Shown one piece after another: positions 20,774 to 22,117 of a DNA stretch of 25,491 nucleotides. Each line of letters begins with the position of its first letter. The stretch's first letter is position 1. Both the position numbers and the translations under genes were made by a program. Source of the stretch: a virus; the IMG/VR virus record IMGVR_UViG_3300042988_001038, positions 1-25,491 of that record; one strand, written 5' to 3'. Under the pieces are notes generated by a model. The model saw nothing but the letters and a program-made list of their open reading frames with translations. It was not told the origin of the DNA and made no database searches.

Positions 20774-21763
20774 CTACAGCCGCGCCGCAATCTCCCTCCC
20801 GGTAGCCCTGTAGTAACTCTGCAGCTGCCTAAGGTCCGCGTGCCCTGAAACCCGCGCAAGCGCCAGGATGTCCATCCTGCGCGCCAGCAGTGTGAGCGCC
20901 GTAGCGCGCGAGTCGTGAAAGGTCAAGCCGTCCGCCAGCACCTGCGCGCGGGCCTTGCGAAACAGCGCATCCCTCGACCTTGACGACACGCTAAACAGCG
21001 CCCCCGGCCGGTGCAGCACGGCCAGCACCCGCGCCGCCTGGCGCGTAATCGGCACCTCCCGCACGCCCACTCTGGCCGCAGTCTTGTGCGTCCGCAGCGT
21101 CACAACGCGGTGCACCAGATCGACCGACTCGCCCGTCAACGCAAGCACCTCGCCGGCCCGCAGCGCCGTGCGCAGCGCCACGAGCCACGCCCAGGCTACC
21201 TGTTGGCCGACCGTGATGGGCGGGGCCGCGCTGACGTAGCCCAGGCGCCGCAGAATCCGCCGTATCTCCTGCCAGCGCAGGAGCCTAGTCCTAGGTGGCG
21301 CCGGAGGCGGTAGCCGAACCGCCCGCCAGGGCGATTCCCGCGGGCACCATCCCCATTCAGCCGCAGCAGACCACACCGCGCGCAGAAGGTGTGCATAGCG
21401 GTGCACCGTGCTCGCGCTGACAGCCTGTAGCCGCGCGTCGCGCCATGCCGCGATGTCCGATGGCTGCAGGGTGTGCAGTGGCTTTGCCAACATAGCCGCG
21501 TGCTCGCGCCGCATCAGGCGCATGGCGCTGGCCTCGAAGACCTTCGCGCCTTTGCCCGGCGTCACTTCGCGTTCGTACCGGGCCAGCGCATCGGCGTAGG
21601 TTTTCGCCGGCCAGCGCGATGCTGTGCCGTCCAGTATTTCGGCTTCGCGCTGCACAGCCCAGGCCCTGGCGGCGCCCTTGGTGGCAAAGGTTCTGGACTC
21701 GCGGATGCCGCGTAGCTCGATCTGCGCGCGCCAGCGGCCGGAGGGGAGTTGGTAGAGGTACAC
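20774..21763 (-). CDS. int: Tyrosine recombinase integrase
   Basis: A 329-residue integrase. The N-terminal arm-binding part starts YLYQLPSGRWRAQIELRG and the core-binding region covers about 55-150. Catalytic residues are R202 (TALRAGEVL), K227 (THKTAARVG), H283-x-x-R286 (FHDSRATAL), H308 (VSGHADLRQL) and Y317 or Y318 (QSYYRATG). It joins phage and host DNA at the attachment site. The start is a GTG at 21763 with a weak ribosome binding site. A tRNA-derived core lies 140 bases upstream, on the usual side for attP. Confidence 0.92.
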   Translation of the reverse strand: MYLYQLPSGRWRAQIELRGIRESRTFATKGAARAWAVQREAEILDGTASRWPAKTYADALARYEREVTPGKGAKVFEASAMRLMRREHAAMLAKPLHTLQPSDIAAWRDARLQAVSASTVHRYAHLLRAVWSAAAEWGWCPRESPWRAVRLPPPAPPRTRLLRWQEIRRILRRLGYVSAAPPITVGQQVAWAWLVALRTALRAGEVLALTGESVDLVHRVVTLRTHKTAARVGVREVPITRQAARVLAVLHRPGALFSVSSRSRDALFRKARAQVLADGLTFHDSRATALTLLARRMDILALARVSGHADLRQLQSYYRATGREIAARL

Positions 21764-21767
21764 CGCA

Positions 21768-21778
21768 GCGTGGGGGAT
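21768..21778 (+). repeat. Possible integrase arm site, copy 1 (GCGTGGGGGAT)
   Basis: An exact 11-bp direct repeat with 21947-21957. The two copies flank the candidate attP core at 126 and 21 bases, as arm-type sites do in lambda-like attP. Their function is not shown. Confidence 0.5.
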
Positions 21779-21903
21779 CGCGTGTGGCCGTGATGGGGGA
21801 CCACGGCGCTACTCACGGCAATTCTGTGCGGTGCAGCGTCTATCAGGCAGGAGGGTTTGCGCTATGGCCGACAGCGCTGTGCGGCGCTATGCGGTCGGTT
21901 TTA

Positions 21904-21926
21904 TGGCCCCCCCGGCGGGAATCGAA
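21904..21926 (-). other. Candidate attP core matching a tRNA 3' end
   Basis: On the - strand the 23 bases read TTCGATT, CCCGC, CGGGGGG, G, CCA. That is exactly a T loop (7), T-stem 3' arm (5), acceptor 3' arm (7), discriminator base and CCA. No other tRNA half is present. Integrases of this class often use tRNA 3' ends, and int starts 140 bases away. Confidence 0.75.
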
Positions 21927-21934
21927 ATCAGCTA

Positions 21935-22117
21935 TCAGCCGTGGGGGCGTGGGGGATAGGTGCGAGGCTTGGCACGCTTACGCGCCAGCTTGTCCGCGTA
22001 CTCGGCCAGCGCCGGCACGTCATCCGGGTGCACCCAGCGCGCCCACCGGACACGGCCTGCGGCAAGCTCGCGGGCTTTGCGGGCTGCTTGGCGTTCGGCG
22101 GGGGTTTTGGCGGTCAT
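21935..22117 (-). CDS. Small basic phage protein next to attP
   Basis: A 60-residue very basic protein (TPAERQAARKARELAAG, VHPDDVPALAEYADKLARKR). It ends nine bases before the attP core. ATG start at 22117. The helical, charged sequence suggests nucleic acid binding, but no family is certain. It shares the - strand with, and lies downstream of, the promoter at 22440-22468. It would be separated from int when the phage integrates. Confidence 0.62.
   Translation of the reverse strand: MTAKTPAERQAARKARELAAGRVRWARWVHPDDVPALAEYADKLARKRAKPRTYPPRPHG
21947..21957 (+). repeat. Possible integrase arm site, copy 2 (GCGTGGGGGAT)
   Basis: Second exact copy of the 11-bp repeat, on the other side of the core. 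It overlaps the end of a small - strand gene, and a related CCGTGGGGG lies just before it. Confidence 0.5.

Follow-up and report, generated by a model that had tools for sequence, protein, structure and literature searches.

Does the short tRNA-like stretch upstream of the integrase gene in this viral DNA belong to a working attachment site, and in which bacteria would such a site be used? We addressed this question in a linear virus record of 25,491 bp, analysed over its whole length and hereafter called the window, which is likely a fragment.

A tRNA-Arg(CCT) 3' end lies upstream of the integrase gene

The locus is organised around three features:

20774..21763, minus strand: tyrosine integrase, 329 aa, GTG start (PF00589, E=3e-11; phrog_1 integrase, E=8e-44)
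21904..21926, minus strand: predicted attP core, 23 bp, identical to tRNA-Arg(CCT) positions 54-76, with 12 exact genome matches
21935..22117, minus strand: small ORF, 60 aa by translation (MTAKTPAERQAARKARELAAG...)

The integrase carries the motifs LRAGE (R202), K227, HDSR (H283, R286), H308 and YY (317/318), its catalytic residues being assigned by motif and not via alignment to a solved structure. Separated by 140 bases from its GTG start codon at 21763 is the 23-mer TTCGATTCCCGCCGGGGGGGCCA, read on the minus strand from 21926 to 21904. A first-pass annotation had proposed that this 23-mer is the core of an attP, that it corresponds to positions 54-76 of a tRNA, and that phage genes lie on both sides of it. 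We therefore looked for host tRNAs ending in the 23-mer by scanning about 85,000 bacterial and archaeal species genomes, and found it in 12 of them, all Burkholderiales. In every case, it forms the last 23 bases (positions 54-76) of a tRNA-Arg with anticodon CCT, covering the T loop, the 3' strand of the T stem, the 3' strand of the acceptor stem, G73 and CCA. Since all 12 matches are tRNA-Arg(CCT) 3' ends, the 23-mer does not stem from chance. The proposed core and its distance from the integrase gene are thus confirmed, as is the phage character of both flanks: the integrase lies on one side, and on the other, beyond the 60-aa ORF (no PHROG match), follow a 113-aa ORF without a match, an Rz-like spanin, an HNH endonuclease and a phage endolysin. 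No similar sequence was retrieved when DNA of the att region was searched against annotated phage records.

Identity between the window and the host genomes begins at T54 and runs no further than the CCA end. Given these limits, host positions 1-53 joined to the phage core would rebuild the same tRNA, the core restoring 23 of 23 bases up to the CCA end, which bears out the earlier expectation that integration would leave the host tRNA 3' end intact. ARAGORN detected no complete tRNA in the window.

Direct repeats flank the core

The exact repeat GCGTGGGGGAT occurs at 21768-21778 and again at 21947-21957, and these two copies had been read as arm-like sites. Closer inspection places both in a larger array of predicted arm-type sites:

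21770..21777, minus strand: P' arm-type site 3, TCCCCCAC, inside the right repeat 21768-21778 of the first-pass annotation
21782..21789, minus strand: P' arm-type site 2 (degenerate), GGCCACAC, 12 bp from site 3
21793..21800, minus strand: P' arm-type site 1, TCCCCCAT, 11 bp from site 2
21941..21948, minus strand: possible second P arm-type site, GCCCCCAC, from a CCCCCAY scan
21949..21956, minus strand: P arm-type site, TCCCCCAC, inside the left repeat 21947-21957, overlapping the 3' end of the 60-aa ORF

P' site 3 ends 6 bp before the integrase start codon, and the last codons of the 60-aa ORF contain the P-arm sites. P' site 2, weak on its own, was placed by the commonest spacing among relatives (11+12), while the possible second P site lies 8 bp from the first, where relatives usually have 11 bp.

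The exact pair, although present as described, is weak by itself: 14-31 of 1000 dinucleotide shuffles matched it, a modest significance that reflects the C-rich DNA. The triple TCCCCCAT / GGCCACAC / TCCCCCAC with its poor middle copy likewise gave only p=0.095 when spacing was left free. With spacing set to 11+12 and a copy in the P arm also counted, however, 0 of 1000 shuffles matched the window. Related integrases, collected from two samples of about 400 genomes each, provided a further comparison. A triple direct repeat with 10-12 bp spacing was significant in 40 of 60 integrase upstream regions, and 23 of these 40 arrays have the 11+12 bp spacing just before the integrase gene, a share whose binomial test treats kin phages as independent and nine spacings as equiprobable and is to be read loosely. 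The motif itself varies among relatives (TGTCCATG, CCCGCACA, TACGCCA, ATCCCGCG and others), and in several of them it recurs in the P arm. The window repeats gain weight from these triples of matching 11+12 geometry, and the predicted direct-repeat arm sites lie on both sides of the core, as for a lambda-type bivalent integrase. By eye, the P-arm sites of two relatives, G508 and G692, likewise appear to run into the end of an ORF, though not the same one.

Related integrases sit beside tRNA genes

Among the related Burkholderiales integrases, 34 of 59 are preceded by a tRNA gene on the same strand, mostly tRNA-Leu. Three use tRNA-Arg(CCT), at distances of 181 bp (L027, in G151), 115 bp (L135, in G508) and 115 bp (L136, in G692). 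We mapped the ends of 13 prophages by direct attL/attR repeats, all of which end at or past CCA. For the tRNA-Arg(CCT) users these repeats measure 18 bp in G151, 16 bp in G508 and 23 bp in G692, where the two copies are 38.8 kb apart and cover exactly positions 54-76. The G692 prophage, from the same bacterial family as the Rubrivivax hosts predicted below, is thus like the window in its tRNA and its 23-bp repeat; its integrase lies 115 bp downstream and is accompanied by CGCACA-type arm repeats, a different motif from that of the window. It also differs in carrying A73 against G73 in the window, and in an integrase that is 39% identical and belongs to another subclade. In G039 and G687 (L091-L093, L154-L156), the repeats reach 66-71 bp past the tRNA-Leu CCA, for 80-85 bp in total, and are far longer than those of other relatives.

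The exact tRNA-Arg(CCT) core, the tRNA-adjacent integrases of relatives and the attL/attR pair of G692 together support reading 21768-21957 as what is, by all these signs, a complete predicted attP of a tyrosine-integrase phage.

The mapped prophages also bear on where strands would be exchanged. Positions 63-76 are included in the repeat of all 13, some repeats starting by position 53 and four only at 63. A general rule of crossover confined to the T loop was rejected for the family, as these four relatives are identical only from position 63. If the place of crossover is common to the family, the window integrase would exchange strands within positions 63-76; it may alternatively act at the T loop, as suggested for mycobacteriophage Ms6 (PMC1762012). 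The Islander database places the T-stem/acceptor side and the T loop together in its class J (PMC4383910).

The tRNA match points to hosts in the Burkholderiales

The genomes that contain the 23-mer belong to Rubrivivax, Caldimonas, Methylibium and unnamed relatives. Because the end of one host arginine-tRNA gene is copied exactly in the phage, the Rubrivivax-Methylibium-Caldimonas group most likely includes its hosts, an assignment made from the tRNA match alone. GC content (65% in the window, 66-72% at the host loci) neither adds nor removes much.

The acceptor arm of the host tRNA had been predicted to be close to CCCCCCG. The observed arms approach this sequence without reproducing it: 11 of 12 have CCCGCCG, whose pairing with CGGGGGG includes a G4-G69 mismatch, and the remaining one has CTCCCCG. 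The mismatch carriers are the tRNA-Arg(CCT) loci L002-L009 and L011-L013, and a 4-69 mismatch is also seen in L055, L060, L062 and L068. As the mismatch is common to 11 hosts and a few other tRNA-Arg(CCT) genes, vertical inheritance is a simpler reading than spread by phage-borne 3' ends.

Prophages with related integrases do lie beside tRNA-Arg(CCT), but no lysogen of the window phage itself came to light: in the 12 genomes that carry the 23-mer, no close relative of the integrase lies closer than about 3 kb to the tRNA, and in 2 of the 12 the locus examined has less than 250 bp of sequence downstream of it. The sole integrase found near a matching tRNA, in Methylibium (L012/L019), was not counted as a lysogen of this type, since it shares 26% identity, is located 5' of the tRNA and faces away from it. 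The Methylibium rhizosphaerae contig of 18,173 bp with tRNA-Arg(CCT) (L012/L014) also exists as a virus record, which includes this distant integrase. Viral contigs with terminase relatives (at most 70% identity over most of the protein) contained neither a copy of the window integrase nor a match to the tRNA 3'-end pattern.

Alternative readings of the locus

Fragments of tRNA 3' ends often mark the ends of islands (PMC4383910), and the 23-mer could accordingly be a dead relic of some earlier event, an attR scar that another element left behind when it integrated. The missing lysogen would agree with this. Yet the 23-mer is still identical at 23 of 23 positions to live host tRNAs, and the integrase gene 140 bp downstream of it is intact, with orientation and distance like those seen at the attL of relatives (115-181 bp among Arg users). 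It is moreover surrounded by an arm-site array that fits the family geometry and by phage genes on both sides, and we regard a relic as very improbable. Overlap of the core with a tRNA gene also calls to mind tRNA-dependent lysogeny, in which integration disrupts the host tRNA and a phage tRNA compensates. The known system of this kind combines a core of about 10 bp with a phage tRNA (PMC10865867), whereas the window core rebuilds the tRNA in full and the window, which may be incomplete, has no tRNA gene; we rejected this reading, which is close to negligible in probability.

Somewhat more room is left for the view that only the core is real, the GCGTGGGGGAT repeats being chance words in C-rich DNA or repressor operators. 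How easily shuffled DNA reproduces the exact pair, the poor middle P' copy and the location of the P-arm copies inside coding sequence all speak for it. They are outweighed, in our judgement, by the position, direct orientation and 11+12 bp spacing shared with the triples of many relatives, by the P-arm copies that several relatives also have, and by the failure of any shuffle to match at fixed spacing, so that this view appears unlikely.

A model for integration and its known counterparts

We are highly confident that the site is the attP of a temperate tailed phage of Burkholderiales, whose tyrosine integrase would carry out recombination between the 23-bp core and its exact counterpart at the 3' end of a host tRNA-Arg(CCU) gene. 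In the general lambda-type scheme, the integrase occupies its arm sites, synapsis with the target follows, and strands are exchanged. Here, the integrase would bind predicted arm-type direct repeats, with a consensus of about TCCCCCAY, that flank the core: three spaced 11+12 bp just before its own gene, together with a single P-arm site or a pair of them. Positions 54-76 of the tRNA would then be swapped for the identical copy of the phage, leaving the tRNA functional. The integrase gene would come to lie some 140 bp beyond the restored tRNA, and the opposite end of the prophage would carry a 23-bp 3' fragment of the tRNA. The integrase gene is also likely to be repressed by its own product, given that the P' sites end so close to its start codon.

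Several described systems resemble this arrangement. In E. coli K-12, the KplE1 (CPS-53) prophage uses IntS to integrate at the tRNA-Arg 3' end of argW and, as predicted for the window phage, restores the tRNA; its attL arm sites overlap the int promoter (PMC2951348). KplE1 differs in its 16-bp core, CTGCAGGGGACACCAT, and in its host, and autoregulation is demonstrated for IntS (PMC2951348) but inferred for the window integrase. Mycobacteriophage Ms6 has a core of similar size (26 bases) over a tRNA T loop and needs attP-attB identity, but uses tRNA-Ala in another host, and the T-loop exchange suggested for it contrasts with positions 63-76, to which the relatives of the window point (PMC1762012). 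Acinetobacter phage vB_AbaS_TRS1 (KX268652), whose integrase is 37.5% identical to that of the window, shares the order endolysin, small ORF, attP, int and has repeats on both sides of attP, of the TTACGCCA type. It differs in host and in its 29-bp putative attP of other sequence, which, according to its authors, recurs at the boundaries of prophages in other strains (PMC5064099), and two P' copies are seen against three in the window. This kind of site is well known; the useful additions are the host prediction and the arm-site pattern at the family level.

A proposed constant layout with changing targets in the integrase clade

The integrases closest to that of the window, at 50% identity, use tRNA-Leu and not tRNA-Arg. 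In the tree, the window integrase groups with tRNA-Leu users in a clade of 8 rows (support 100/99) that excludes the other tRNA-Arg(CCT) users, and the Arg label, taken for the window from its core and not from a mapped lysogen, needs at least three changes. This placement suggests that use of tRNA-Arg(CCU) arose repeatedly, or that labels changed back and forth. We tentatively propose, at a little short of even confidence, that the clade keeps its arm-site geometry fixed (three P' sites at 11+12 with P-arm partners) while the arm motif changes and integration switches its target among tRNA-Leu isoacceptors and tRNA-Arg(CCU), the window representing one of at least three independent jumps.

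For a virus known from sequence alone, a 23-base signature thus names a likely host group. If the proposal for the clade is true, these integrases would form a natural series for the co-evolution of arm-binding domains and arm motifs. The locus also offers a worked case, within a large integrase clade, of target tRNA and arm motif varying under a constant layout, and could so help to predict attP sites and arm-binding specificity across integrases.
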